Source of the DNA: a virus
DNA: 29,796 nucleotides
Direction: 5' to 3' (one strand)
Virus record (IMG/VR): IMGVR_UViG_3300031566_000260
Span: 1 to 29,796 of that record
Each line of letters opens with the position of its first letter. The stretch's first letter is position 1. The translations under genes and the position numbers were made by a program. Below are positions 1-24,700 of the stretch, piece by piece. A model generated the notes under the pieces. The model was not told where the DNA came from and did not search any database. It saw only the letters and a program-made list of their open reading frames with translations.

Positions 1-194
1 AAGTTGGTCGCGTCTACCTCAGTCATCGCGCCCACAGTGGTTGCACCAGCTTGCCACGCGGCGCCTGTCCAGTACATGGCGTTGCCGACTGCCTGGATGG
101 TGAGGGTCACGGTCAGACCCGTGTTCGCCTCTCCAAGATCGACTACAAAACGGAGCAAGTCCCAAGACTGCAGCCCCTTGACTCCACTCGACAT
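1..194 (-). CDS. N-terminal part of a baseplate or tail-associated protein (cut by left edge)
   Basis: The ATG at 194 has AGGAG seven bases upstream, ten bases after the baseplate J stop. Sixty-four codons are visible, reading MSSGVKGLQSWDLLRFVVDL and then a beta-rich stretch (GLTVTLTIQAVGNAMYWTG). The frame is open at base 1. In this position a tail-tip (gpI-like) or fibre-related protein is common, but the visible part has no diagnostic motif and the function is unknown. Confidence 0.65.
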   Translation of the reverse strand, partial: MSSGVKGLQSWDLLRFVVDLGEANTGLTVTLTIQAVGNAMYWTGAAWQAGATTVGAMTEVDATN

Positions 195-203
195 CCAGGA
201 CTC

Positions 204-1583
204 CTACGTGATTGCGATGTTCGAAGCGCGCACCCGGATCAGTTCGCCGTCGCCCACCGTAACGTTCGCAGTGGGGTTCGTGAACTCGATATCCTGGACG
301 CCTGGGATCGATTGCGCTGCGAATATCAGCTCGCTCCAGATGACGTCTTGGCCGATCCCTAGCCCGTTGACGTATCGAATGAGAGCGCTCTTCACCTTGT
401 CTTTGAGGGTCGACAGCTCGCCCTGATAGGTTGTGTCCGCTGCGATCACGGCTGTGATAACGAGCTGCGTCGTCGCCGGAGCCAGGACGAACACCTGGAT
501 GCCGTCCGCTCCATACCCGGGGTAGTTCGCGCGATCGGTCGGATCGCCGTAGATGACCTTCTGAACTTCCTCGATCAGCCCGACGTACCACGTGTATTCC
601 CCAGTCACGGTGTCGAGCGCGGTCAGCCCACTCGGGTACAGCGTCTCATCGAGGATGACGAGCCCGCTGGTCGGGTCGAGTCGGTAGTCGACGTCTCGAA
701 CGATCGCCGCGGCGTTGATTTCCAAAGAGATCGTGTAACCCTCGTGCACCGGGACTTCGCCCAGAGAGAACCGCTTCTCGCCGCCTGCAGCCGACGCTAC
801 GACGGTCTCCGGAGTGCCCGAGTTGTCCTCGATCCGCTCCACCGTGCCGAACCCGTCGTCGATGTACAGTTCGACCTCTCCGGGACGAATCCCCGGAAAG
901 GTCACTGACTGTGCCGTGACGACGCTACCGAACCCGTCGACCGCGACATTGAGCGCGGCGCCCACAAGGGCATCTTCCGTGCCCCTCGCGAGGGTCCGGT
1001 AATAGGTGCGCAGCCGGTCTCGAAGGTGCGCGTCGCTCTCCTCGTCCTGGCCTCCGGACGCCGCGGTGTTGTTGTAGACGGTCTCGACCCCCGGAATCCC
1101 ATCAAGCTGGTCGGCGGTATTGACGTCGGCGTTGCCGGCCTCTCCGGCCTCCAGCGCCTGTGCAGGGATCGTAGCAGACGTCGATGACAGGTCAGGGATC
1201 GTGCCCGCCGATGTCGTCTGGAAGGCAGGCCCGCCCTCGGGCACCCGAAAGATGGTACCGATCGGGATAGACACCGCTCCGCTCGTCCCAGCGCGCCCGA
1301 ACACTGCGGTGGTCAGCGCCTTGGCCTCGCCTTCACGAACGATGATGCCTCCAGGGATGTCTTCGGCTCGGAGATCGAGTTCATCTCCCGTAGCGGTGTC
1401 GATGTCCCAAACCTCCATGAGGTTCGTCATTTCGAAGTAAGTACCGTCGATTTCGCGCGCAATGGCGGACAGCACGCTGTGTACTCCGCCACCTTCGATC
1501 ACATCTGTCAGTTCACTCCGAGCGACGACGCGGTTGATCATGCGCTGCAAGATGTCCTGAAACTGCTTCGGTTGGAAGCCCAT
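204..1583 (-). CDS. Baseplate J-like wedge protein, 459 aa
   Basis: The ATG at 1583 has AGGAG five bases upstream, overlapping the previous TAG. The sequence shows the pattern of the baseplate J/gp6-like family: a helical N-terminus (ILQRMINRVVARSELTDV), ATGDELDLRAEDIPG, the beta domain with GTIFRVPEGGPAFQTTSAGTI, QALEAGEAGNADVNTADQL and GIPGVETVYNNTAASGGQDEESDAHLRDRL, then a C-terminal part (LSTLKDKVKSALIRYVNGLGIGQDV, IPGVQDIEFTNPTANVTVGDGE). These wedge proteins surround the hub and link to fibres. Longer upstream in-frame sequence lacks a good start. Confidence 0.87.
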   Translation of the reverse strand: MGFQPKQFQDILQRMINRVVARSELTDVIEGGGVHSVLSAIAREIDGTYFEMTNLMEVWDIDTATGDELDLRAEDIPGGIIVREGEAKALTTAVFGRAGTSGAVSIPIGTIFRVPEGGPAFQTTSAGTIPDLSSTSATIPAQALEAGEAGNADVNTADQLDGIPGVETVYNNTAASGGQDEESDAHLRDRLRTYYRTLARGTEDALVGAALNVAVDGFGSVVTAQSVTFPGIRPGEVELYIDDGFGTVERIEDNSGTPETVVASAAGGEKRFSLGEVPVHEGYTISLEINAAAIVRDVDYRLDPTSGLVILDETLYPSGLTALDTVTGEYTWYVGLIEEVQKVIYGDPTDRANYPGYGADGIQVFVLAPATTQLVITAVIAADTTYQGELSTLKDKVKSALIRYVNGLGIGQDVIWSELIFAAQSIPGVQDIEFTNPTANVTVGDGELIRVRASNIAIT

Positions 1584-1591
1584 TACCGCTC

Positions 1592-3394
1592 CTACACGAC
1601 GACCGCGCGGATACCGCGAGCCTCGGTTTCGCCGATTGGCACTACGTCGACATTGATGTCGACCTGATCGGGGTGACCATCTGGTACCACGATCCGCACG
1701 TTCTTGACCAGCCGCACTCGCGGGTCGGCGAGCATCGTCTCGCGCACCTGTACCTTGATGATTTCGACTGCGCCCTGCGTGATCTTGAGACCGATGGTGC
1801 GACGCAAGCCGTAATCCGGTACCAATGGCATTGAGCCTCTCTCGGTCCACATCCGCATCTGAAGCGCCTGGCTCAGGTTGTCAATGCCATCGATCATCTG
1901 ATAGTCGGTGAGGGTGCTTCGATCGATCGCGAATGACACCCGCGGCTGGCCAGGGAGGCTCCTTCCGGTCTCGACCCACCGCAAGTCCTTCAGATAGATG
2001 GACTCGTCTTCCTGGTCGACCTTGTCGCTCCCTGCGGCGGAAATCACGGGGACCCGAATCTTGGTGCCAGGCTGCGCCGTGCTGGGCATGGCCGCCTTCG
2101 AGATGAAAGGGGCCTTGAGACCGTTAACGATCGCGATGTCGTACCACAACGACCCGTCGCCGAGCTTGTTGGCCGCGATCGACTGCAGCGTGTCCTGCGA
2201 GCGCACCACGTAGTCGATGAACGAACCATACCGCGCGTACACCCGTTGCAACGGGGTAGCTCCGGCTGCGACCAGCGCCGCCGTCGACTTCGTCAGCGCC
2301 TGTGAGCCGAAGCGCCCGACCGAGGTAGCCGGATCGCCATCCGCAGCAGCGGTCAGCTCAGCTTGCGACGCGTTCCCGATATTGCCGGCCTCCGCGGTCG
2401 ACATGCGCCCAGCGACCGTCGAGTACGTGTCCCCAAACGCATCCCGTTGGGCTGCGATGGTGTGGAGCCCATCGAGCGCCATCTGGTAGTTCTGGCGCAC
2501 CTCGTTGGGGATGTCCGCAGCGTTCTCCATCAGCCCCATAGCGCTTTCGAGGATCGTAGCCGTGCTTGTGATGAAGGTACGTCCGATCGATAGCGTGTCT
2601 GTCACCCCGTCAACGAAGCTGTTCGCACTGTTGATGATGATGTCGACGTTGGTGAGCACCTGGTCGATGGTGGCGACGAAGTAGCGCACCTCGCCCAAGA
2701 TCGCCGAGCCTTCCTGGATGGCGGCAGAGGCGAGCGACAACCCCTTGTTGACGTCCGAAATCGTGTTCTTGATCTTGCCGAGCACGCTTGCCGGGGTTGG
2801 GGGCAGGAGGATGCCGTCAGCGGGCCCAATGGCGATGAACTCCAGCTGCAGTGGGTAGCGGAATTTTGACGAGATCGCGCGGGACAATGTCGCTTCGGTG
2901 GGCACCACGACAAAGTGCTCGTCCGTCTTGGTGTCGTGCCAGATCATGTACGAGCCCGTCGCGAACTGCGGATCGCTCTTCAGCTTGCTGTAGTTGTCGA
3001 AGTAGTTCCACAGCATGCGCCGGCTCCATGCCGGTCCGGAGAGCGCGACCCCGGGGACATAGAAGTCAGGCAGCAGCGACGTGTCGAGCGACGACTTCGG
3101 CTTGAGCCCCGGATCCCACATGATTGAGATCTGCTTGTACAGCTCTCCGCGCTCCTCTACGACGAGACCGCCGAGCGTCGGCGTGATCTTCTGACGGTAG
3201 ACGCGCTTGACGCTGTAGCTCTGCAAACCGAGTGGTAGCACCATGAACTGAATCGGGGGGATCAGAAGCACGCCAGCGAGCGGTGATGCACGCAATTCCA
3301 GCACGTACGGGTGCTTCGCCTGCCCCTCGACGTACCAACTATCGCCCGTGAGGGCCCGACGAGCGACCTCCGCGATCTCCTCGATGAACCCCAT
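1592..3394 (-). CDS. Baseplate protein: LysM domain fused to gp25-like wedge domain, 600 aa
   Basis: The ATG at 3394 overlaps the spike stop. Residues 1-200 contain YVLELRASPLAGVLLIPP and TPTLGGLVVEERGELYKQISI, a pattern common in LysM-containing baseplate proteins. A long Ala/Ser/Thr-rich helical middle follows. A LysM motif occupies about 394-440 (YVVRSQDTLQSIAANKLGDG, LWYDIAIVNGL). The last 90 residues (from about 511) read like gp25: GSMPLVPDYGLRRTIG, VQVRETMLADPRVRLVKNV, VDINVDVVPIGE. In T4 and many relatives the LysM/gp53-type and gp25 functions are separate proteins, so this is a fusion of wedge components. The frame is continuous with no sign of frameshift. Confidence 0.78.
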   Translation of the reverse strand: MGFIEEIAEVARRALTGDSWYVEGQAKHPYVLELRASPLAGVLLIPPIQFMVLPLGLQSYSVKRVYRQKITPTLGGLVVEERGELYKQISIMWDPGLKPKSSLDTSLLPDFYVPGVALSGPAWSRRMLWNYFDNYSKLKSDPQFATGSYMIWHDTKTDEHFVVVPTEATLSRAISSKFRYPLQLEFIAIGPADGILLPPTPASVLGKIKNTISDVNKGLSLASAAIQEGSAILGEVRYFVATIDQVLTNVDIIINSANSFVDGVTDTLSIGRTFITSTATILESAMGLMENAADIPNEVRQNYQMALDGLHTIAAQRDAFGDTYSTVAGRMSTAEAGNIGNASQAELTAAADGDPATSVGRFGSQALTKSTAALVAAGATPLQRVYARYGSFIDYVVRSQDTLQSIAANKLGDGSLWYDIAIVNGLKAPFISKAAMPSTAQPGTKIRVPVISAAGSDKVDQEDESIYLKDLRWVETGRSLPGQPRVSFAIDRSTLTDYQMIDGIDNLSQALQMRMWTERGSMPLVPDYGLRRTIGLKITQGAVEIIKVQVRETMLADPRVRLVKNVRIVVPDGHPDQVDINVDVVPIGETEARGIRAVVV

Positions 3395-4425
3395 CAGTCC
3401 GTCTCCAGTTGTGTCGCCAAGTAGGGTCGACCTGCCGACAGTGAGGTCGCGATCGCGGACAACGTAACGCCGATCGCTGCTGCGGTCGCACCTGCGGCTG
3501 CCGCGGCAGCCGTTGCAGCGGTCGCTGCAGCCCCCGCTGCTGTCGAGGCAGCACCCTGAGCCAGCGCCGTGAATGCCAGCCCGTTCGCAGTATGCGCAGC
3601 CGCGATCGTGGTCCAGGTCGACTGTTCCGTCAGCCACATCGCTTGTTCTTGCGTCAGCTGGGTCTGAAGCGCCGTGAGCATCGTGCGACCCAGAATGACC
3701 GGTTCCTGGGTCGGGCTGGGCGCGAGCAGCAGGCCAATCGAGACCTTGGCGCCTGCGGCAGTCGCGATATTTACGTTCCCAGCGACCGGAACAGCCGGCA
3801 CCTCGACCGACGGGATGCCAGGGGTCACGATCCCTGCGGTCGCCACGATGCCGTTGAGATCGATATTCCCATCGATCGTCATGCCGATGGTCCACCCGCG
3901 CAGCGTGCGCTTCTTCTTGTAGAGCGTCTTGTCCGTGGGCAGGTTGCGAACGTTGCTCGGATGGTCGACCTGTCCCAGGATGATGGGGCGTGCCAGATCG
4001 TTTGACATGAATCCGACGATCACGTGGTCGCCGTCCATGTTTCGCGGGTCAGAAACCACCGGTACGGGCGGACCAAGAGCCCCGCCCCCGTCCGAAATGA
4101 GCAGCCCCGTCTTGATGTCGATCGTTGACGCTCTTGGGATCCACACGTCATTGTCCACGAGCCCGGCAGACTCGCGCATGATCGGCACCTGCCTCAAAGT
4201 AGTCGTGTGACGCGGATCGTAGATGAAGACATCGCACATGACTGCGGGGGCGAATAGCTGCGTCGGGTTGCGGTTAGTCGCCAATTCCGGGTCTGCGACT
4301 CCGTACACCTTCGTGATGACGCCCTGTAGCATCAGACCGTTCGCAGCACGTGCTGACCCGTTCGGCGACGTGCCGCGAGCAAGATGTGCGAGCGCAGAGG
4401 GGAGCATGGGGCGAAGGCGTTTCAT
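3394..4425 (-). CDS. Baseplate spike protein with OB-fold (gp5/gpV-like), 343 aa
   Basis: The ATG at 4425 overlaps the hub stop. The segment VVSDPRNMDGDHVIVGFM...ARPIILGQVDHP at about residues 125-158 carries the typical phage-spike OB-fold pattern of a D-x-V-hydrophobic strand followed by P-hydrophobic-ILG. Beta-type repeats with valine and glycine follow (IDGNIDLNGIVATAGIV, AGNVNIATAAGAKVSIG), as in the beta-helical shaft of spikes. The C-terminus (about 285-330) is an Ala/Thr-rich low-complexity helix. No lysozyme domain is present. Coupled by TGATG to the LysM/gp25 gene. Confidence 0.75.
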   Translation of the reverse strand: MKRLRPMLPSALAHLARGTSPNGSARAANGLMLQGVITKVYGVADPELATNRNPTQLFAPAVMCDVFIYDPRHTTTLRQVPIMRESAGLVDNDVWIPRASTIDIKTGLLISDGGGALGPPVPVVSDPRNMDGDHVIVGFMSNDLARPIILGQVDHPSNVRNLPTDKTLYKKKRTLRGWTIGMTIDGNIDLNGIVATAGIVTPGIPSVEVPAVPVAGNVNIATAAGAKVSIGLLLAPSPTQEPVILGRTMLTALQTQLTQEQAMWLTEQSTWTTIAAAHTANGLAFTALAQGAASTAAGAAATAATAAAAAAGATAAAIGVTLSAIATSLSAGRPYLATQLETD

Positions 4426-6065
4426 CCGATGACTCTACCTCCGAGCGAGATGATGGGGTCTGGCACGGTCAGATTGATGAACTTGTCGATCTGTAGCTGC
4501 TGAATCTGGTCGAGAAGGCCGAGCTTCGCCGCTGCAGCGTCAGCCGAGCCTGACGGGATGGTCGTGATCAGCGACCAGTCGACCGCCTCTTCTGCCATCG
4601 CTACAAGCCGCAAGTCCTCCTGATAGCCGCGGGACACCGTCAAGACCGTGTTGGAAGTAGGGGAACCATCACCCTCCGACCAGTTGTGCTGGACGCTCTC
4701 GACGTAGAAGGTCATGTCGAGACCCTTGAGCAGCAGATCGCGTGGGAACCCCGGCAGCTCCGCGAGGTACGCATTGCTCAGCCGGATCTTCTCCCCCTTC
4801 CGAATCTCTGGGCGCATCTCACCGATGGTGATCGTCCCCGACCAGTACCGATGGTTGAGCATGTTCCAGCACACGAGCAGAAAGAGCTGCTCACGGTACG
4901 CGATGCTCATCGGTGGCTGCGGCTTCAGCTGCCCCGCCACTTGTGCTGCTTCCCCGTCGAAGTAGATCGTGCTCTCTTCAATACGTTTGAGCCCGTACTT
5001 GTCGACAGAACTGCCATTCGAAACCGGCAGATACACGCCGAGTGCGTTTTGCTGCAAGACTGGGGCTAGATCGCCTGTCAGCATCACGTAGTTGATACGG
5101 TTCGCGCCCTTGGTCAGCGAAAGCTGCTCGACCAGCCGCGCATCGACCTCCCACGTCGTCAGCTTGAACCACGGAGACAGCTTGTTGTCGACTAGGTTCA
5201 CGAAGGGCTTCTCACGCATAATCAACTTGACCTTGGGCCCCAGAAGACTGCGCAGTGGGCTCGAATCTATGAAGACCTCGTTGAGTACCGGGTTGCTCCA
5301 GCTCTTCACCATGTCCCACACGCTGCCACCGCTTGACGGGTTGATCAAGTTGGTGATGAGCGTGATGCCCCGCAGCTCGTCCTGCACGCCTCCACCGACC
5401 AAGACGGACGAATCATCGAGGAACGCGATCCATTTCTGCGGCAACGGACCGACCGACAGCCCCAACGGGACCTCGATGTACCCACCGAGCAGCAGCGGCT
5501 TGTTGATGCCACCCATGAACCCGCGGATGATGGTCTTCACGATCGAGTCGGGCGAACCAGCACACTGCTGCAGAATCTGCGTCATATTGATGCCGGCAGC
5601 TTGGTCGATCGTAACGTCGTACGGATTGAAGAACACCGGCGTATCTGTCAGTGCAAACCCGTATGATCTGCCAGAGACTTGGATCACGGTCTCCACCGCA
5701 CCACCGCCCGCGGAAACGAGATGCCCGACCGCGTCGATGATGCCGAACGACAGCTCGACCACTTGATCGTTCTTATAGATCTCGACTTTCCACCAGTCGC
5801 CCTGTTCGAGCAGCTCGGTCCAGAGCTTCCCTTGCCGGTAGAAGAAGTCGAATGACTCTTTCCGTGCCTTCAACATGAAAGTCACTGAGCCGAAAGGCGC
5901 CTCGATACCGTCTCCGAAAGTGAACGAGATCAGGGACGTCTTCTTCCGTCCCGTAATCCCCGGAAGGTCGAACACATCGAACACGTCGATCTTGTTGTTG
6001 ATGACCGAGTGCGTGTAGAACGACAGCCGCGCGTGGGTCGTGTTCCGTTTGGCGAGCTGGCTCAT
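4422..6065 (-). CDS. Baseplate hub protein (gp27/gpD-like), 547 aa
   Basis: The ATG at 6065 overlaps the tape measure stop. Features that fit the hub family are an early beta domain (FTFGDGIEAPFGSVTFMLKA), the stretch ELSFGIIDAVGHLVSAGG followed by VIQVSGRSYGFALTDTPV at about 105-150, and a late KGEKIRLSNAYLAEL...FYVESVQHNWSEG region near 425-475 ending in an extended tail. Hub trimers lie at the tip of the tube and carry the spike encoded by the next gene, to which it is coupled by ATGA. The order tape measure, hub, spike is standard. No enzyme motif was found. Confidence 0.78.
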   Translation of the reverse strand: MSQLAKRNTTHARLSFYTHSVINNKIDVFDVFDLPGITGRKKTSLISFTFGDGIEAPFGSVTFMLKARKESFDFFYRQGKLWTELLEQGDWWKVEIYKNDQVVELSFGIIDAVGHLVSAGGGAVETVIQVSGRSYGFALTDTPVFFNPYDVTIDQAAGINMTQILQQCAGSPDSIVKTIIRGFMGGINKPLLLGGYIEVPLGLSVGPLPQKWIAFLDDSSVLVGGGVQDELRGITLITNLINPSSGGSVWDMVKSWSNPVLNEVFIDSSPLRSLLGPKVKLIMREKPFVNLVDNKLSPWFKLTTWEVDARLVEQLSLTKGANRINYVMLTGDLAPVLQQNALGVYLPVSNGSSVDKYGLKRIEESTIYFDGEAAQVAGQLKPQPPMSIAYREQLFLLVCWNMLNHRYWSGTITIGEMRPEIRKGEKIRLSNAYLAELPGFPRDLLLKGLDMTFYVESVQHNWSEGDGSPTSNTVLTVSRGYQEDLRLVAMAEEAVDWSLITTIPSGSADAAAAKLGLLDQIQQLQIDKFINLTVPDPIISLGGRVIG

Positions 6066-7945
6066 CGCAAACTCGTGCCGAGATTGAGCGTACTGGAGAT
6101 CCGACCGGTTGCGTCCTCGATCGCATACGCAAAATCGTTGATCGCCTGCCCCAACGTGCCAGTAATCGTCTTGGCGATGTTCAACGAAGCCCTCTCCAGA
6201 GCCTGCACCGCTGGGGCGACCTGGCCGCCGACACCGATTCGCTCCTGTTCGATGCCGGCGTTGGCGATGACCGAGTACCCCGTTGCGCGTGCGAGCCCCT
6301 GACCCTGGATTACCATTTCCTGGATGTCTGCATGACCGAACGTCCCGGACTTGATGCCCTTTCCCAGCTTGATTGCGTCTTCAGCGGTGATATTCGCCTT
6401 GAGCGCACCCATAGCTTGCTGTATGATCAAGCCCTGACTGTACTCGTCCATGCCTGGGACGAGGAACGACTTGAGGTACTCCGGCATCGCTGCAGCGGAG
6501 GCACCGGCGTCCTGCATCTTCAGGCGGATCTTGGCGTACTCCCCGAAGCCGCCCTGACCCGTAAAACCCATCGCTCGCATCATTCGCAGGTCTGCGCCGC
6601 TCTGCGGCCCATTCCGCCCCACTGCGGCGGCTCCAGCCCCGAAAGAGCGCGAATAGCTCATGAAGCGGAACGGGTCGTCGACCCCACTGGCGTTCAAGGC
6701 CGCTGCACCGCTCAGGAGGCCGGGCAAGCTGACGTTGTTGCCCTGCTCGTACATCCCGTGCAACCAGCTGCTCTGCTGCTGCAAGTAGGTTGCGATCTCA
6801 GACCCTTCGAGCCCATGCGTAACCGCGATACCGATCTGGTCAGCGACCTCCTGTGCGTCTCCGGTGTTCCCGGTCCACCGAGAACCGAGCATGAATTCGC
6901 CCTGCTGCTGCCCGGAAACACCGTATCGCTGCGTCATAGCGAGCGACACACCGAATTCACCGACCCCGACAGGGCGTCCTGCGGCTTGGGACAGGCCACT
7001 CGCTTGGGCCAACGCCTGTTGCGGAGTCAGCCCGAATGACCTGCCCGCATCCGCATAGCCCCACCTATCGAAGAGATCGGACCCCGGCTTGTAGTTTCCT
7101 GCGCCGCCTGCGATCGCGCCCAACTCGGCATCCATCTGGGGGGAGTTCGAGAGTGAATCAGCGACCTGCCTTTTGCCCGCAACCGTTAGAGGGGAAGTAA
7201 ACAGCGCGCGAACTCCTTCGTAAGCCGAAGCGATCATACCGATCCTGGCTGATCTAGACTTCGCCCGCATTTGGACCGCTTTCATCTGCCCCCCGATGTC
7301 ATCGGGCAGATTGCCGTACAGCTCCATCATGCGTTCTTGTGAGTTCGTGAAGTTTCCACCAACAGATCGGGCACCAAACGGATTGCCGCCCCCACCGCCT
7401 GTCGGACCGCGGAACCCCATTGCGGACGACATCAGGTAGGGGGCCGCCTGCATCTGGGCCTGCTGCCACGACAGGTGCGAGCCATAGGCTTGCGCCGCAG
7501 TCATCAACCCGCCGGCTGCCAGCGCACCAGCTACGGGAATCGCCCCCAGAGCCGTTGCGAGCCCGCCCATCGAAGGCGATGGGATCTGGGGCGCGCGGCC
7601 GCCTCCAAACCCTCCTCCGCCTCGACTGCCTCCGCCTCGACTGCCACCGCCTCCACCTCCGCTCAAACGTCGCAGCGAGTTGTCGAGAGTCGAGATCTCG
7701 GAGTTGACGTCCTTCAGCTGGTCCTTCAGCTTCTTGAACTGGGCGGTGCCGCGGGCGACACCGTCCATCTGCTTGACGATCGCGCCCATAGCACGGCGGC
7801 TGACGTCGAGCTGACGGTTGACGGACCCGATCTCGGAGTTGAACTCCCGCGGCGTCTTGCGGTCAAACACCTTGCGCAGCAGCTTCTCCAGACCGGTGAG
7901 CTGCTGCGTGTTGACTCGGATGTTCAGCGCGCTGTTATTCGGCAC
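6062..7945 (-). CDS. Tail tape measure protein, 627 aa
   Basis: The GTG at 7945 overlaps the chaperone stop (TAGTG) and has GAGGTG five bases upstream, so I prefer it to the longer open frame. The N-terminus is helical (LTGLEKLLRKVFDRKTP, LKKLKDQLKDV-type repeats). A Gly/Arg/Ser-rich hinge at about 95-117 follows, then an Ala/Gly-rich hydrophobic segment near 127-152 (LGAIPVAGALAAGGLMTAAQ), then a long Gly/Ala/Gln-rich helical region. Tape measures set tail length; by the usual rule of about 0.15 nm per residue this one would suit a tail of roughly 90 nm. I see no lysozyme or peptidase motif. It couples to the hub gene by ATGA. Confidence 0.8.
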   Translation of the reverse strand: MPNNSALNIRVNTQQLTGLEKLLRKVFDRKTPREFNSEIGSVNRQLDVSRRAMGAIVKQMDGVARGTAQFKKLKDQLKDVNSEISTLDNSLRRLSGGGGGGSRGGGSRGGGGFGGGRAPQIPSPSMGGLATALGAIPVAGALAAGGLMTAAQAYGSHLSWQQAQMQAAPYLMSSAMGFRGPTGGGGGNPFGARSVGGNFTNSQERMMELYGNLPDDIGGQMKAVQMRAKSRSARIGMIASAYEGVRALFTSPLTVAGKRQVADSLSNSPQMDAELGAIAGGAGNYKPGSDLFDRWGYADAGRSFGLTPQQALAQASGLSQAAGRPVGVGEFGVSLAMTQRYGVSGQQQGEFMLGSRWTGNTGDAQEVADQIGIAVTHGLEGSEIATYLQQQSSWLHGMYEQGNNVSLPGLLSGAAALNASGVDDPFRFMSYSRSFGAGAAAVGRNGPQSGADLRMMRAMGFTGQGGFGEYAKIRLKMQDAGASAAAMPEYLKSFLVPGMDEYSQGLIIQQAMGALKANITAEDAIKLGKGIKSGTFGHADIQEMVIQGQGLARATGYSVIANAGIEQERIGVGGQVAPAVQALERASLNIAKTITGTLGQAINDFAYAIEDATGRISSTLNLGTSLR

Positions 7946-8254
7946 TACGGCACCTCGTCCAGATTCGGGACTCGACCTTCCGCGATCGCACGCTCCCACT
8001 TGTCGATCAATGGGTCGCCGGAATCTACGATCTCGGGGGCCGGGGAAGTCCAGTGACGAATATCAGCCTCATGGCTCATCCGTTCCCACTCCTTCTTTGC
8101 CGTATCCAGCTCGACAGTCAGGGCTGCCAGCGTAGTCAGGTCGTAATCATCGATCGATCGAGCAGGTCGACCCGTGTTCACAGCCCACAGGACTTCCGCC
8201 ACCTCGAACGAATCACGCACCATCCCCTTGATCCTCTCCTTCGCCGTCTGCGCC
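7945..8254 (-). CDS. Tail assembly chaperone, downstream frame (gpT-like extension)
   Basis: This frame is +1 (equivalently -2) relative to the upstream chaperone and overlaps its end. It has no good start near its 5' end: an ATG at 8223 would give 92 residues with AAGGAG about 12 bases upstream, while the open frame extends back to 8313. By analogy with known gpG-gpGT pairs I read it mainly as an extension, giving a fusion of about 255 residues. The visible sequence is helical and acidic (FEVAEVLWAVNTG, LTTLAALTVELDTAKKEWERM, ADIRHWTSPAPEIV). It stops in a TAGTG overlap with the tape measure start. The frameshift itself is inferred; independent initiation at 8223 remains possible. Confidence 0.6.
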
Positions 8255-9205: not shown

Positions 9206-12019
9206 CTACGCCGCTGCCGCGAATGACGCGTTGACGAGATGGATTGTGGTGGTGACGAAGTTGGTCGACTGCACAGGCGCGACCTCAAGATCCACCTTGG
9301 CCACGTCTCCGGTGATCTCTACGGTCAGGTTGCGCCACGCCGTGATCGCGAACTGGCCATTCGGGTTGGCCATCTCGATGAGCGTCGCGATGGCGATGTC
9401 AGCGATCGCGTTCGCGGAGCCGGCAAACGCCTTCTTCCCGATCGCCGCTTCGAGGTTGACCCGAAGATTGTACGCTACGAAGTTCACCGCTTCGTTGACA
9501 GCAGCCTCGACGTAGGCAGGGTTGTCGTCGATGAGGTAGGTCGTGACATTGCGCAGCCAGCGCCAACCGATGTTGTCCTTGTACTGCAACATGCAGAGCC
9601 CGGAATCGATCATCTCGTCGCTGTCATCTTGGATGTTGTACGAGGACTGTCCGATGACATCGAGCACATCGACGTACTTTCGAGTCAGCGACGTGCCAAC
9701 AGGAGACCCCGCCTGCTGCCCCGCGGCCAGACAGGCCGAGAAATACGGCGGAAACTGCTCTTCTTCGCCGTCCGTGTTGAACCGTACGATGTCCTGAATG
9801 CAGAGCCGGACGTGGCGGGTGTTGAGCGCCTGTGCCAGCGTCTTCGCTGCCGCCTTGGTCGTCCCAGAAGGGGCTCCCAGGACCGCATCGCGCTCCTGAC
9901 CACCCTGGCCTCCCATGTACACGCAGTGGGCCTTCACGGCGGCGTGTACGGCTGCGTCGTCGGTGAGCGCGACCACGGTGTTCGCGAACGTGTCACGAAG
10001 CACGTCGAGCGCCCCCTGCCAGTCGGCAAACGCCGTCGTACCCTCGACCCCGCCGGACAAGAAGACCGGGGACGCCGTGTTGTCTGGCACACCGGTCGCT
10101 GCAGCAGCCGCATCGGCCTCGACGAGCGCGGAGCGGGCGTTGATCGCAGCCACGAGCGCGGCCAGATCTCCAGTGAACGAAGCTGCGGCACCGATCACGG
10201 TCGTCGCGGCCTTGTCGTCCATGTCCGAGATCATCACGGTGCCGGATCCACCCGTCAGCGTGATCGTCCAGCCGCCGAGCGCGTTGAAGTGCGAGGCGAT
10301 GTCGTTGGCGACCGGGTACGAAGCCGGAGCCAGCACCGCCACGTCCCCATCGATCGTGAGCGTGCGAGCCGCTTCCACATGACCGGTCGCGATTCCAGTC
10401 AGACGAGACCAGGTCGAAACGCCTACCACCGGAACCGCACCGGCAAGCACGAGCTTCTCTGCCTGGGGAGAGCCGGTGGCGCCGAACCCGAAGAGCACAG
10501 CGGTCTGCGTCGTGGCGCCATCCGCCACGATGGAGTCGATCGCAGTCGACTTGAGCGCGATGTTGTCGATGAGGACCACACCTTGTGAGGTCTCAGCAGC
10601 CGTGATCGAGAACACCGCCACGGTGCCCGCTGCGTTGGTCACGGAGATGGTGCCGACAGCCGCAGCCGACAGCGTTGCCCCCATGATCTCGCTCCACGTC
10701 GCCGTTCCGGTCACCGCGACGGTGCCCGTCATGGTGAGCGTCTCCGACTGAGCGTCTCCGGAGTCGTCGAGCCCGTAGAGGGTGATCGTGCCGATGTCGC
10801 CCGCGGCGTCAGATACGACACGCGCCGCCTCTCCGACGTTGAAGATGAGCCCGGTCATCGTGATGGTGCGCGCCGCAGCGACCTCGCCGATCACAACGTA
10901 CTGAATCTCGCTCCAGAGCGTGATGGTTGGAACCGGAGTGGTCCCGTTGGTCGTGACCTTCTCCGACGTCGGCGTGCCCACGGAGTTGTCGCCGAAGATG
11001 AGCACGTCGTGCGACCCGCCGGCATCGAGGACGAACGACACGACCGTGCCGGCGACCTCCATGATGTCGGAGCCGAAGTGCCACAGCCCGTCGTCGGGGT
11101 CAGCAGGCGTGATCGTGATCAGTAGGTCGGAATCGCCGTTGTCGTCCACCGACACCGTTCCGGTTGGCGCCGTGAGCATGATCGCTCCTAGCACCTTTGC
11201 CCATTGCTGTGTTCCGACCACGGGGGTGACCCCCGTGAGCACCAAGGTCTCGGTCGCCGGATCACCGGTCGCGTTGTCGGTGCCGTAGATAGTGATCGAG
11301 CCCACGTCAGCGGCGTTGTCCGACACCACATTGACGACCGCAGCTGCGGTGATCGGGTTGGAAATGTCACCATCGAGACCAGTGGTCGAGATCGTGCCGA
11401 CATAGTCGGTCGAGAGCCCCGCCGCGGTCTTCGTGAACGCCGCGGTGACTCCGGTGGTGCGATCGAGCGCCATCGTCATGGTGTCGGCGCCGTTGGTACC
11501 GGGCACGTACAATGCCGTCCAAATGGGGTCGCCGCCGACGTCGTCGAGCACTTCAGACGTGTCCCCCAGAACGATCGTGACCTTCTTGCCCTGGACGGTG
11601 CCGGACTCGATCAGGAGGTTGATCTGCGTCGTGTACACGCCGTAGTCGAGACTCGTGATGTCGAGAGCGTCGCCATCGACATTCGAGAACGAAGCCGTCG
11701 AGCGAGTCGCCGGGTTCACCTTGCAATACTTGACCGCTTGGGCCCCACCCGGAATCTCGGGGTCATTCGAGCCCTGGAACAGCATCAGGCCCGACTCACG
11801 CAGATCGCCCTCACGGAAGGTCTCGTTGACCCGAGCCGGGTTGGTGATGTTGATGATCGGCTCAACCCCGTTCCACGGAGACCCGCCATCCGCTTCACCG
11901 AGGCAGGCGATGATGCCAGTGGCGCCGAGTCCGACAACGGCGAGGCCGCTCGCGTCGATCTTCGTCAGTGAAGACGGGGTCGACGTGGTACGACCGTTGA
12001 AAAACACCTTTGATGCCAT
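9206..12019 (-). CDS. Tail sheath protein, 937 aa, with duplicated beta-rich insertion
   Basis: The protein forms the contractile sheath around the tail tube. The first 130 or so residues, with GVEPIINITNPARVNETFREGDL and GGAQAVKYCKVN, and the C-terminal 320 residues, with IQDIVRFNTDGEEEQ, LTRKYVDVLDVIGQ and the end KVDLEVAPVQSTNFVTTTIH, look like the conserved sheath core, and the next gene is the tube. The length is about twice a common sheath size of 400-500 residues. The excess is explained by residues about 230-570, where two modules of about 170 residues follow each other; each has two subdomains with ITxYGxDxxG and ETLxxTG or a related pattern. The insertion probably sits on the outside of the tail. 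Confidence 0.88.
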   Translation of the reverse strand: MASKVFFNGRTTSTPSSLTKIDASGLAVVGLGATGIIACLGEADGGSPWNGVEPIINITNPARVNETFREGDLRESGLMLFQGSNDPEIPGGAQAVKYCKVNPATRSTASFSNVDGDALDITSLDYGVYTTQINLLIESGTVQGKKVTIVLGDTSEVLDDVGGDPIWTALYVPGTNGADTMTMALDRTTGVTAAFTKTAAGLSTDYVGTISTTGLDGDISNPITAAAVVNVVSDNAADVGSITIYGTDNATGDPATETLVLTGVTPVVGTQQWAKVLGAIMLTAPTGTVSVDDNGDSDLLITITPADPDDGLWHFGSDIMEVAGTVVSFVLDAGGSHDVLIFGDNSVGTPTSEKVTTNGTTPVPTITLWSEIQYVVIGEVAAARTITMTGLIFNVGEAARVVSDAAGDIGTITLYGLDDSGDAQSETLTMTGTVAVTGTATWSEIMGATLSAAAVGTISVTNAAGTVAVFSITAAETSQGVVLIDNIALKSTAIDSIVADGATTQTAVLFGFGATGSPQAEKLVLAGAVPVVGVSTWSRLTGIATGHVEAARTLTIDGDVAVLAPASYPVANDIASHFNALGGWTITLTGGSGTVMISDMDDKAATTVIGAAASFTGDLAALVAAINARSALVEADAAAAATGVPDNTASPVFLSGGVEGTTAFADWQGALDVLRDTFANTVVALTDDAAVHAAVKAHCVYMGGQGGQERDAVLGAPSGTTKAAAKTLAQALNTRHVRLCIQDIVRFNTDGEEEQFPPYFSACLAAGQQAGSPVGTSLTRKYVDVLDVIGQSSYNIQDDSDEMIDSGLCMLQYKDNIGWRWLRNVTTYLIDDNPAYVEAAVNEAVNFVAYNLRVNLEAAIGKKAFAGSANAIADIAIATLIEMANPNGQFAITAWRNLTVEITGDVAKVDLEVAPVQSTNFVTTTIHLVNASFAAAA
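10310..10822 (-). repeat. Sheath insertion module 2 (subdomains A2 and B2)
   Basis: This encodes residues about 399-570. A2 begins VVSDAAGDIGTITLYGLD and contains ETLTMTGT and GTISV; B2 has VLFGFGATGSPQAEKLV, STWSRL and EAARTLTI. A2 resembles A1 and B2 resembles B1 more than A resembles B, so the unit that duplicated was the pair. The exact right end is uncertain. Confidence 0.7.
10823..11330 (-). repeat. Sheath insertion module 1 (subdomains A1 and B1)
   Basis: This encodes residues about 230-398 of the sheath. A1 begins VVSDNAADVGSITIYGTD and contains ETLVLTGV and GTVSV; B1 begins HDVLIFGDNSVGTPTSEKV and contains TLWSEI and AAARTITM. The same order of motifs recurs in the next module about 170 residues later. 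Confidence 0.75.
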
Positions 12020-13896: not shown

Positions 13897-14696
13897 CCTC
13901 GCCTCTCGGTGAGCCAGTCCAGCTCCACTTTGAAAGTACGCGGAAGGTTCTGCACGACGTTGGCGCCGCTGATGCCCGCTGCGGGACCGATCGAGTGCTG
14001 TACGCCGAATTGAGCGTCATCCGTCACCCAAACCGGCCGACAGTCGTAGCTCACCGAGTAAGCGACTCCATCAGCCGGTCCACGCCCAACAACCCACTGC
14101 ACCTGGCTCGGGACTAGATCGGTTGGAGTCGTGATCTTGAAGTCGACTCCCACGCGGAAGATGTTGTCGTTGACGTCCTCCGCATAGTGTATTTCGAGTG
14201 GCTCGTAACGGAACGCGGTGAGCTGCTTCTCACGGGTGCGCCCCAGCCAACCAACAGGCACCTTCACGTCGGACGTGTCCCGCAGGAGTACCTGGGTGAA
14301 GGTGGCACGCTGCTCGATGCCTACGAATCGGTCGCGATACGCCACCGCGTTGTGTCCGTCGACCGTCATGACCGCTTGTCCCGTGGTCCACGCAGACGGC
14401 GTGTACTCGTGTCGGGTAGGGTCGAAAGCGATCGAGGAGAACACAGCAGAAATGAGCGCGAACTTGTTCGGAAGGTGCGACTCGATCCGGTACAGCGGGT
14501 TGATGTAGAGCCAACCGTCATAGCACTTGGTACAGGTCGGGTCGTACTGCTCGGAGGCGGCGTTGAGCTGGCACGTACAGAGGAGCGCACGTGACCACCG
14601 GAACTTGAGACCATGCTGCTCGATCGCCCGGGTGAACTCGTCCGGTGCGAATCTCGACTGTACGCCGGGCGCGACCCCCTTGTCGACGAGCCCCAT
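13893..14696 (-). CDS. Neck/connector-type structural protein with C4 metal-binding-like cluster, 267 aa
   Basis: The ATG at 14696 overlaps the upstream TGA. Residues 40-58 hold a CxC...CxxC arrangement (C40, C42, C55, C58) around YDPTCTKCYDGWLY, which could bind zinc or form a structural knuckle. The rest is beta-type sequence with many aromatic residues (FRVGVDFKITTPTDLVPSQ, GVAYSVSYDCRPVWVT). It ends by ATGA overlap with the next gene. The position between the connector and the tail-completion-type genes suggests a neck or adaptor role, but the exact function is not shown by the sequence. Confidence 0.65.
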   Translation of the reverse strand: MGLVDKGVAPGVQSRFAPDEFTRAIEQHGLKFRWSRALLCTCQLNAASEQYDPTCTKCYDGWLYINPLYRIESHLPNKFALISAVFSSIAFDPTRHEYTPSAWTTGQAVMTVDGHNAVAYRDRFVGIEQRATFTQVLLRDTSDVKVPVGWLGRTREKQLTAFRYEPLEIHYAEDVNDNIFRVGVDFKITTPTDLVPSQVQWVVGRGPADGVAYSVSYDCRPVWVTDDAQFGVQHSIGPAAGISGANVVQNLPRTFKVELDWLTERRG

Positions 14697-16075
14697 CAGA
14701 CCACCACGAGGCGCGTACCCTTGCCGTAGTACCTACGCAGGTTCGGAAGGGCTTCCTTGATCTCTTTCTGGTACTCGATGATGCGAGCGCCGTAGCCAGA
14801 GTTGGTCGCCGATGACGTGGTGCCGATCGACTGTGACAGGCCCGGCACGCTGATGGACTGCGAAGCGATGCCTGCACCAGCGAGAAGATCACCGGCGATG
14901 TTGAGCACGCCGATTGACGCCGCCATCGCAACCAGATGCTTGAGGTCTGCCGGCAGGCCGCCTTCAGCCGGCGTCTTTCCGGGCTCAAAGCCCGACCGAT
15001 AGGAGATGCGCCAAACACCCGGGACACGCCCCGTCGCGCCGCTCCAGATGGGCATCAGCATGCCTGGGATGAGCAGGACGTCGGCGATGTTGCCCTGGCC
15101 CGGCACCACCTGCACCACCCCGGTCAGCCCATCATCGACCAAGATGATCCAATCATCGAGGATGGTCACCCCCGCAGACATCGACGGGTACTGGAATTCC
15201 AGGCTGTCGACGCGCCGAACTGGGTAGTGATCGAGCTGGAACCAGCCCCAGCGTCCGTAGTCTCCGGCGTAGTGGTCCTGTACCTCGTAGTAGTCGCGAG
15301 CGATGAGATCGATGTCAAGCTCTTTCTGGAGCCACTGCACAGCGACGTCGATGTAGTGCTCGAACATGCGGTCTGGGTAAGGCTCGCCGGTAGCGGGGTC
15401 CGTGAGGTCGACACCGAACAGGTACAGCGCGATCAACTCGTCCGTCGAGAGCAGGACCGCTGCGGCAGCGCTGTCTGAAGCGCGTCGTTCTGACCCCTGC
15501 GATGCGTCGAGGTTGGCGGTGTTGTAGTAGTCCGCCGAGTACGCAACTGTGTTGACAGCGAGATCTGTGTACTCATAGAACTCCTCGTTGTCGAGGAGAT
15601 CGATGGCTGCGACCTCTGTGCCCGATCCGGCTCCGAGCGTGGCGTAACGCGTGATTCGAACCTGATCGAAACGTTCTCGCACTGTAGCGAGCGGGGCGCA
15701 CTGCACCGTGATGCGATTGGTCTCGATGTCGGGGTTGTCCGGGTCAGAGTCATCGATGTAGTCGACAACTGCCTCGATGATGGGCTCGATCGCAACGGTA
15801 TCGAACCGGACCGTCGAGATTGCAGGAGCGACGAAGACGCGCGCAAACCCGATTGCCTCGATCACGAGCCTGTAGCGAAATCCCTGGACCGCGTCGATCG
15901 AGAAGATGCCTGTTGGACCAGTTGAGACCGACACCGCGTTGACCACGATGCCGATCCCGCCGATGGCTTCAGCTCCACCTGCGGACGGGCTCTCCGGCCG
16001 CAGCTCCACGACCACGCCTTCGACTCCGTTGCCGCTGGCATCCTGAATCGTGCCTGTGATCGCGACGACTGCCAC
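14696..16075 (-). CDS. Head-tail connector/neck-type protein with carboxypeptidase-regulatory-like N-terminus, 459 aa
   Basis: The ATG at 16075 opens a protein with three visible parts. Residues 1-95 look like a carboxypeptidase-regulatory or transthyretin-like beta sandwich (ITGTIQDASGNGVEGVVVELRP, TGPTGIFSIDAVQG, YRLVIEAIGF). Residues about 110-200 form a second beta-rich, possibly FN3-like unit (RITRYATLGAGSG, FYEYTDLAVNTVAYSA). The C-terminal half contains helical and Trp/Tyr-rich sequence, including LPADLKHLVAMAASIG and SQSIGTTSSATNSGYG, the latter resembling a motif I recall in connector-type proteins of contractile-tailed phages. The beta domains would plausibly decorate the neck. It overlaps the next gene by TGATG. 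The specific role (adaptor or neck) is inferred. Confidence 0.65.
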   Translation of the reverse strand: MAVVAITGTIQDASGNGVEGVVVELRPESPSAGGAEAIGGIGIVVNAVSVSTGPTGIFSIDAVQGFRYRLVIEAIGFARVFVAPAISTVRFDTVAIEPIIEAVVDYIDDSDPDNPDIETNRITVQCAPLATVRERFDQVRITRYATLGAGSGTEVAAIDLLDNEEFYEYTDLAVNTVAYSADYYNTANLDASQGSERRASDSAAAAVLLSTDELIALYLFGVDLTDPATGEPYPDRMFEHYIDVAVQWLQKELDIDLIARDYYEVQDHYAGDYGRWGWFQLDHYPVRRVDSLEFQYPSMSAGVTILDDWIILVDDGLTGVVQVVPGQGNIADVLLIPGMLMPIWSGATGRVPGVWRISYRSGFEPGKTPAEGGLPADLKHLVAMAASIGVLNIAGDLLAGAGIASQSISVPGLSQSIGTTSSATNSGYGARIIEYQKEIKEALPNLRRYYGKGTRLVVV

Positions 16076-21706: not shown

Positions 21707-24700
21707 TCACAACTCCAGGAAGAGGTCGGTTTCGAAGCTCTTCTGAACCTTCGACGTTGACTCGATCGCAGACGCATCGACTGTCATCATGTCCAAGTCC
21801 GTACGAATAGGGGTCTTGTCCTGCACGGTCTGCAGGAACTCCTCGATCGCGGTGAACCTCGACCGGCCAATGGCGCGCACACGTGCTTCGGGGATGATCG
21901 GGTTCTGCCGCTCGTAGCCGGTGAACACCTTCTGCGGCCCCACCTTCACGATACTCGGCACCTCTGCAGCGACCCCGAGGCGCGTGACGTTGACGAGGAA
22001 CTTGCTCTCCTTGATCACCGCACGGTCCATTGGAGTGAGCCCGTCGATGATCTTGTTGACCACGTCGCTCGACTGGACGACGGCTCCGCCAGCTGCCGTG
22101 CGCATCTCTGCTCCGACCACATCCAGCTGGTCCTGAACGAAGAGCATCACCTGCATGCCTCGAATCGCGAGGTACACCTCGGTCGGGTCGAGCGACTTCC
22201 GCTGCTTCTTGGCGGCGTCCTTCTGGTACAGGTGCGCGCTGAGCAACTCGGTTCGCTCCGTCTCGGTCAACTGGTTGATCGCCTCCGTGAGAGCAGCAAC
22301 GGGCCCCTTGATCGCGGTCCGACCACCATACGTCCCCTTGGTGACGTCGGTGTACGAGCCGATTCTCTCGAAGTCGATCACATTTCGAGTCCCGCCCGGC
22401 ACCGGCGTCTGCTTCAGCGTCGTGAACGCCATCCGCGCAGCCTCACCACCCAGCGTAGCTGCGACCTCCGCCTTCGCAGCGATCATCTGCCAGGCTTCCC
22501 GGGTCTTCTTCGCCGACGCCTTGTTGCGGGCGTACTCCGCGACCGCCAGAAGCCCAGCATTGAAGTCGATCTCGCCGCCAACAGGCGTTCCGTCGATCTC
22601 CATGCCCAGAACCGTCCCAGTCACGTTCATGGTCGCAACGGGACCGAAGATCTCGTGCTCCATCTCCATGAGCTTGCCCACCGGCCCCAGCGAGCCATCT
22701 GGACGTTGGATGAGTTCCGGCGGGATCGGATCGGGCAGAAGCCGCGCTGCGCGCGTCATCCGCTGCCACTCCGACATCGGCGACGAAAGCGAGTCGTAGT
22801 TGATCATTTCGGGCGCGTTGCCCCAGTTCATCCCGGTGTTCGCCGCGTCACTCGCGACCATGCCGACAGTGTTGTTGAACACCGTCATCTGCTTCCTGTC
22901 GAGCGGAGGCGTCTTGATGGCGTTCTTCTCAACGAGATCGTGGTACTCCTTCGCGAGCGCGTCAACGCGCTTCTGCGCAGCTGCTCGGCTGTCCTTCGGG
23001 AGCCGGTCGATGTTCCCGATATCTTCGATCTCCTTCAGAATCTTGTGCGAGTGGGGCGTACCGTAGAAGTACGACTGCACACCGTCCTTGACGAAGTACG
23101 CCTCGGGCGCCTGAATCTTGAACTGCTGGAAGATCTGAACACGGGCGTCTGCCGACCACTGGCTCAGCTGGACGTCGGCGTGGTGGGCCCAGCTGCGCCC
23201 CTCCATGCATCGATCGACGAACACCGACACATACGAGTCCCGGTTCCGTCGATCCTTCATCTTCTTGAAGACCTCGGAGTTCAGTTCGCGAGTTCCGGTG
23301 TAGTTGCTGCCGATGTAGGTGACGTAGTAGTACCCGTTGCCCGGATTGGGGTCGCTCGGGTCGTACTCCCTCGACCCCTGAAGCGCCTCATTCACGTCCT
23401 TGAAGCCCATGAGACGCATCACGGATTCCGCGACCCGGCACGACTCCAAAATGCCACCACCGAAGATGATGAACTGCCGCGCGTTGCCCTCGCTTCGATC
23501 GGAAGTACGCATCAACTCCTCGATACGGTTCATGATCGACTCGGCCTTTGCGTTGCCTACCACGTTCACGATGTCGAACTGATGACGCTCCGCGCGCATC
23601 CCGGGGTCTAGAAGGTTGAGCACACGCGCCTTGACCTCCCGCTTTGACACCCAGACGGTCTCGCCGCTGTTCTCCTCGATCAACGCTACCTTGTCGCCCT
23701 TCTCGCCGAGAGCTGCGTTGTACTTGAACGACGGAGCCTCCCATTCGGCGAGCGTCGAACGCTTCTCTTCCTCCCACTCCTCCTTCGTCATGTCCTTCGG
23801 CTTCGCACCGAACTTGGGCTTGAACTGCTTGTCGAACCGTTCGGGGATCTCAACCCGATCGCCATCCTTGACGATCTCAAACCCGCCCGCCGACTTTGGC
23901 TTGTTCAACTCTCGATCCCAGTCCTCCTTGCGGAAGGGAAGGTGGAGCGACCCCCGCTTGTCGGACACCCAGTACTTCCCCTCAGGGACTGTGACCTTGT
24001 GCTTGCCCTCGCCCCAACTCACTGTGTCATGATGTTCGATCTGCGTGGAACGAGTCCCTAGCAATCGCTGTCCCTCATCCGCAGAAATGCCGTTCATCCG
24101 CGACACCAGATCCAACACCGCTTGCACGTTGGCGCCCTTCACCGTGACCAGCTCCTTGATCCGCGAAAGATGCGCTTTCGCGTCACCGGGCCAAGCTGGC
24201 GGGACCATCCTCTTGATGACGGCTCGAAACTCACGCTGGAACTTCTGGGCACGGTCCCACAGCTCCGGGTCCGTTGCCCGGATCGTATCGCTCCCTCGGC
24301 AGATGATCCCCAAGGGTCCCTCTTCGGGGTTGATGACCTTGCTCGGCCACTTGATCGTGTCACGCACCCACTTGCCACCCTCTTTGCGCGCGATCTTGTT
24401 GAGCTGCGCGGTCGTCACTTGCGTGCCAGAAAGCTGCTCGTACGAGTCGACCCCCATCTCACGCAGCGCCTTGTGCATGTGCAAGTTGTACAGGCCGGTG
24501 ATCTCGTCTCCAAGCTCCTCTGCGGTCGGCCACAGACCGGCGAGCTTGCGACGCACCTTCGCATTGGTGATGTCCGGGCGATCGAGCAGCCACTGCGGGT
24601 CGAAGGGGATCCAGTTCTCGGACTCGTCCTTGAACGCCTTATCTGACTCCTCACCCTGTGCGACCTTGCGGGTCACCTTCACGAACAGGTCTTCCGATGC

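Follow-up and report, generated by a model that had tools for sequence, protein, structure and literature searches.

Tandem A-B-A-B beta domains inserted into the tail sheath of an uncultured phage

Extra domains are common in phage tail sheaths, and their rise has mostly been inferred from fold comparison. Here, we describe the contractile tail sheath of an uncultured phage in which residues 225–566 are four tandem copies of one beta domain of ~80–95 residues, arranged in the order A-B-A-B. The window, i.e. the whole stretch of DNA that was analysed (29,796 bases), is an entire IMG/VR virus record and consists of a single metagenomic contig. For this one sheath family, sequence alone gives a copy series of 0, 1, 2, 3 and 4 units, points to the likely course of events and places the insertion at one fixed site. 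A small beta domain would have been taken up in one mid-chain loop of the sheath, this domain would then have doubled to A-B, and the A-B pair would finally have doubled to A-B-A-B in one lineage. We give the architecture, the origin and a decoration of the sheath surface by the array, taken jointly, a probability of roughly 0.7, a figure from which any role in adhesion is excluded.

Identity and gene context of the sheath

The product of the 937-aa ORF is a multi-domain contractile phage tail sheath. This identity, which the sequence-only reading had already assumed, was borne out by a PF04984 match in a profile search of the genome (33.4 bits vs a cut-off of 31.4, at 9539–10027), by a tail sheath match of the protein to phrog_279 (E 5.5e-47) and by a Foldseek search with the predicted model, for which the best PDB match was the sheath of phage 812 (8q1i_O, 936 columns, E 1.5e-22), with the T4, P1 and pyocin sheaths also matched. 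PF04984 was absent from the hmmscan listing of the protein at E 0.1, and the only PDB entry matched by sequence was again the phage 812 sheath (E 3.4e-20). The start of the protein (MASKVFFNGR) lines up with the starts of its relatives. The part preceding the array is alignable with the sheaths of cultured phages that lack the unit and with residues 8–170 of the phage 812 sheath, and residues 636–924 pair with residues 288–576 of the latter (Table 1).

The gene order, i.e. sheath, tube-like, chaperone-like and baseplate genes, is present, with matches to baseplate J and a sheath initiator downstream, and capsid and protease genes are found upstream of the sheath gene. In SPO1 and Dolphis, the sheath gene is followed by a tube or major tail protein gene; by this position and a weak match only, the 148-aa gene next to the sheath gene is a putative tail tube gene.

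Two further proteins of the window deserve mention. Between the capsid and sheath genes, a 459-aa protein (14696–16075, minus strand) shows a phrog_772 tail-fibre match at residues 192–452 and, below the Pfam cut-off, a carboxypeptidase-regulatory-like beta domain at residues 6–80. An unusually large ORF of 2,492 aa (21707–29185, minus strand) adjoins the head genes and has weak matches to SNF2-type helicases; its counterpart is possibly a 2,516-aa ORF (86–7636) in a four-unit relative (L012).

Table 1. Sheath gene, its parts and the two genes downstream (window coordinates).
Feature	Position	Strand	Description
Tail sheath gene	9206..12019	-	One 937-aa ORF; PF04984, phrog_279, fold match to phage 812 sheath
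Sheath N-terminal part, residues 1-215	11375..12019	-	Conserved core and native beta-rich middle
Unit A1, residues ~225-308	11096..11347	-	Unit HMM 232-291, E 2e-18; strands 229-304 in model
Unit B1, residues ~318-396	10832..11068	-	Unit HMM 330-388, E 2e-21
Unit A2, residues ~397-478	10586..10831	-	Unit HMM 402-460, E 3e-21
Unit B2, residues ~484-566	10322..10570	-	Unit HMM 498-556, E 3e-22
Sheath C-terminal part, residues 570-937	9209..10312	-	Conserved core; PF04984 match
Next gene downstream, tail tube gene position (putative), 148 aa	8749..9195	-	phrog_985 virion structural protein, E 1.2e-5
Tail assembly chaperone-like gene, 165 aa	8213..8710	-	phrog_25000, E 3.3e-8

Four tandem units in alternating order

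The sequence-only reading had proposed that a unit of two beta-rich subdomains is duplicated with a period of about 170 residues, and all motifs it quoted were found in the sheath ORF. The period was confirmed by a self dot plot of the protein (25-residue windows, 20 shuffles as control), in which the diagonals at +169 (score 68), +170 (66) and +168 (58) exceeded the shuffle maximum of 42. Further diagonals, i.e. +264 (75, the strongest of all), +95 (63), +96 (49) and +73 (49), reflect the homology between A and B. Therefore, the element consists of one unit present four times, alternating A, B, A, B, with successive units spaced by ~96, 72 and 96 residues and a pair period of 168–170. The proposed two-subdomain unit thus stands as a repeated A-B pair, but its two halves are copies of one domain.

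Alignment of A1B1 with A2B2 gave a score of 273, compared to a mean of 48 (SD 8.7, maximum 79) after shuffling. The two pairs share 37 % of their amino acids and 55 % of their nucleotides (50 % at third positions), so the pair duplication is old. Units of like type were the most similar (A1/A2, z ~20; B1/B2, z ~17), and the cross-type comparisons A1/B2, A2/B2, B1/A2 and A1/B1 yielded z values of 9.7, 9.4, 7.3 and 6.7, respectively.

Profiles for A and B were also built from two-unit relatives alone, with the four-unit sheaths excluded. On A1, B1, A2 and B2, the A-only profile scored 57.9, 24.8, 59.7 and 25.9 bits, respectively, and the B-only profile 17.9, 64.6, 33.6 and 74.9 bits; both the alternation A-B-A-B and the kinship of A with B are hence recovered by profiles that come from two-unit relatives. 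The unit profile had zero matches on reversed and shuffled sheaths, and no second unit-bearing protein was found within the window at E ≤1.

As the window is one metagenomic contig, the repeat might in principle be an assembly artefact, but this has a negligible chance of being true: the copies differ at 45 % of their nucleotides, and the same four-unit order in further, independent contigs with distinct sheaths refutes it.

Copy number among relatives

Relatives were reached via the tube and capsid genes, and close sheaths were then aligned and used as a query, which yielded 57 viral loci and two loci in genome assemblies. After identical proteins had been dropped, 64 sheath sequences were scored for units, and 59 sheaths entered the first tree. 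A direct search of viral contigs with the window protein found no relative, the array alone as query retrieved nothing from the genome contigs or the phage collection, and among 50,697 phage entries, not one had 80 % coverage of the window protein, or of a two-unit relative, at a single place.

In the 59-sheath tree, two units are the most frequent state (34 sheaths), followed by none (14), four (7), and one and three (2 each), so that the copy number indeed differs among relatives, as had been anticipated. Judged by the type-specific profiles, the three-unit sheaths are ordered A-A-B. One sheath scored as having no unit (L066) possibly contains a single diverged one (A profile, single-sequence E-value 0.0016). 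The four-unit sheaths are 43–46 % identical to that of the window. The relatives examined from cultured phages, i.e. Bordetella phage PHB04, Pseudomonas phage Dolphis, Aeromonas phage ST4 and Bacillus phage SPO1, are homologous to it along the core, but have only 570–572 aa and zero units.

The duplication had also been held to account for most of the extra length over a usual sheath. While the array as a whole does make up ~340 of the ~365 residues by which the protein exceeds its 572-aa relatives, the pair duplication contributes only ~170 of them, i.e. about half of the excess, because the other half is the older A-B pair that all two-unit relatives have as well.

Two sheaths carry extra segments of another kind: in L062, a different segment (residues 208–308) lies at the array's own place, beside two units, and in the two-unit sheath of L047 a segment (residues 473–564) is found elsewhere than at the array site. 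Two-unit sheath relatives were also seen in a Myxococcales MAG chromosome (L074, accession number CP070713.1) and in a 98.8 kb contig of a Planctomycetota MAG (L073), which may reflect host links or prophages, or binning errors.

Order of the duplications

In a more careful core tree, built with the array removed, all sampled four-unit sheaths and the two-unit sheath L011 form one clade (support 100/99), as they do in the first tree. Within this clade, L011 is placed beside the window (support 96/83); the four-unit state needs two changes on this tree. A constrained tree, with the six four-unit sheaths as a clade without L011, was not rejected (AU p 0.378), so a loss in L011 is likely, though short of proof. 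A single duplication from A-B to A-B-A-B, followed by loss of a pair in L011, fits the data best, but is not proven.

In the tree of the units, the A and B types are mostly separate, and the A1 units from the six sampled sheaths with four units fall together, along with the A unit of L011; the deep branches are poorly supported because only 68 columns were available. Following this pattern, the duplication of the unit to A-B most likely preceded that of A-B to A-B-A-B. Both the GC content and the third-position GC content of the array are near the values in the remainder of the gene and thus give no hint that the array arrived recently.

Source of the unit

Nine of 23 units match phrog_8198, a family of otherwise unrelated, uncharacterised phage virion-region proteins (best E 2.5e-4), and hhalign supports this kinship with a probability of 94.6 % (E 6.5e-8, 56 columns); only the domain is shared, i.e. 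the sheath itself is no member of that family. A derivation of the units from a native sheath domain was unsupported (hhalign probability 0.3 against the sheaths lacking units). Considering the kinship to phrog_8198 together with the lack of kinship to these sheaths, the unit appears more likely to be an acquired domain than a native copy. Proteins of phrog_8198 that share the unit domain lie near terminase genes in a cyanophage (L076:2821-3564) and in an uncultured myovirus (L077:2830-3621). In the four-unit relative mentioned above, a protein of 262–263 aa encoded close to the capsid gene (L012:12199-12987) contains the unit once, as a weak match (E 5e-4).

Pfam, including Big_1, Big_2 and other Ig-like families, gave no credible match at E ≤1 for the 23 units, nor for the four of the window. 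PDB matches of the unit profile were mostly xylanase fragments of ~30 residues with E 0.08 or worse, i.e. chance matches, and kinship to xylanases was dismissed.

A 464-aa uncharacterised phage protein (A0A6J5Q173) superposes on the predicted model of a two-unit sheath over 186 columns (2.4 Å rmsd, 31 % identity). From its length alone, we infer that the matched stretch would be an A-B pair. If the pair occurs outside sheaths, the sheath would be a platform for exchangeable surface modules, and it is tempting to speculate that this uncultured myophage lineage tunes its tail surface via the copy number of a mobile beta-domain pair, an idea that we nevertheless consider rather unlikely.

Predicted structure and insertion point

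The AlphaFold2 model of the window sheath (45 aligned rows) reached a mean pLDDT of 85.7 and a pTM of 0.63, with ten-residue blocks of the array at 77–95, mostly 80–95. Each unit is predicted to be all-beta with about five to six strands, in keeping with the beta-rich domains that the sequence-only reading had expected, and the model shows a core plus four units. The model of a two-unit sheath (L024) was similar in quality (mean pLDDT 85.3, pTM 0.70), with its units mostly above 90. At these pTM values, it is uncertain in both models how the units are placed against the core and against each other.

With the array excised, the window sheath aligns with the cultured-phage sheaths of 570–572 residues and the phage 812 sheath of 587, and the array maps to one site midway along the chain, next to phage 812 residue ~196/197. 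The phage 812 sheath has flexible outer domains, III and IV, located on the outer face (PMC12886913), and phages with a His-tag in an exposed sheath loop (residue 272/273) remain infective, with the tag accessible (PMC12362608). More generally, extra sheath domains sit away from the tube, and adhesion or stability has been proposed as their role (PMC9230969). By analogy with these known sheath structures and from the insertion point, the four units would most likely lie on the outer face of each sheath subunit, and the insertion point may naturally accommodate large display modules.

Comparison with known systems

Multi-domain sheaths of type 3, with an N- and C-terminal core and several extra beta domains, have already been described (Evseev et al. 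2022, PMC9230969), so the kind of protein is known; with a core and four inserted units, i.e. three or more domains, the window sheath belongs to this type. An Ig-like beta-sandwich fold is frequent but non-obligatory in the extra domains of type 3 sheaths, and in the main text of that study, repeats go unmentioned and the term duplication refers to whole sheath genes alone (PMC9230969). In contrast, the extra domains of the window sheath are tandem copies that vary from 0 to 4 among relatives and include a duplicated pair. The sheath of Staphylococcus phage 812 / K (PDB 5li2, 8q1i, 8r5g, 9euf), although the closest in structure within the PDB, has 587 aa and lacks the array.

Outside sheaths, the BACON repeats of crAss-like phages (PMC6949934) are likewise tandem beta domains of a tail-associated protein that arose by internal duplication, but domain and protein are different ones, and crAssphage duplicated single domains, whereas a pair was most likely duplicated here. 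Small beta domains on each subunit are also known from the major tail proteins lambda gpV, T5 pb6 and YSD1, whose Ig-like domains face outwards on every tail subunit (PMC8718954); these, however, are single C-terminal domains of tube proteins in non-contractile tails, as opposed to tandem domains inserted into a sheath. In open-access papers, we found no description of tandem-duplicated sheath domains. The new part is the duplication history together with the series of 0–4 copies, and the role of outer sheath domains becomes testable with near relatives that are one pair apart, e.g. L011 and the window lineage.

Selection and possible function

Among related two-unit sheaths, nine pairs were usable, and in these the dN/dS of the units ranged from 0.03 to 0.31, i.e. 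was below 0.32 in every pair, so the units are maintained by selection. It exceeded that of the core in eight of the nine pairs (e.g. 0.15–0.31 vs 0.07–0.14), so purifying selection acts on the units too, but as a rule less strongly than on the core. Similarly, identity among two-unit sheaths is 42–43 % in the units vs 52–59 % in the core. The conserved positions of the unit, i.e. glycines, hydrophobic residues and one Glu, look structural.

A decoration of the tail surface by the array is likely, judging by the insertion point and the known sheath structures. The N- and C-terminal core parts would do the contracting, and on the outside of every subunit the four units would make up an arm, which would coat the tail with hundreds of copies. 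The 645-residue product of 6062–7999 has only weak matches as a tape measure; if it is a helical tape measure, a rough estimate would be a tail of ~100 nm with ~25 discs and, on the same premise, presumably some 150 sheath subunits and 600 units. The most likely function of such a coat is passive decoration, i.e. many weak contacts with polymers of the host surface or the environment during adsorption, which is close to an even bet, if slightly on the doubtful side. Against this reading, the units reveal neither a binding partner nor a ligand site or catalytic motif, their conserved positions look structural, as noted above, and the acidic charge of the array in the window (−28) is not found in the two-unit sheath L024 (+2).

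Alternatively, the units might brace the sheath, with contacts to neighbouring subunits or discs stabilising the extended or the contracted tail. A stabilising role has been suggested for an additional sheath domain of phage 812 (Novacek et al., as cited in PMC9230969), and both the purifying selection on the units and the preservation of the A-B difference across lineages, which is expected if A and B have fixed places, would agree with it. However, sheaths with 0, 1, 2, 3 or 4 units share the same core, so that a fixed lattice contact is not needed, and the units usually evolve faster than the core. We therefore regard bracing as the less probable role when compared to passive decoration.

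Still less probable, though not negligible, is a nearly neutral copy number that results from unequal recombination in an insertion-tolerant loop, with selection acting only on folding and solubility. The two-unit sheath within the four-unit clade, the different extra segments in L062 and L047, and the structural look of the conserved positions would all be compatible with such drift. Against it, sheaths inside the clade that have diverged deeply, to the 43–46 % identity given above, still keep four units in the order A-B-A-B, and the two-unit state dominates elsewhere (34/59 rows), both of which look maintained. A decoration of the tail surface remains the preferred reading.

The arrays themselves may also be exchanged. 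Between L027 and L039, the units differ with a dN of 0.161 and a dS of 0.539, compared to 0.021 and 0.247, respectively, in the core, which suggests recombination limited to the array.
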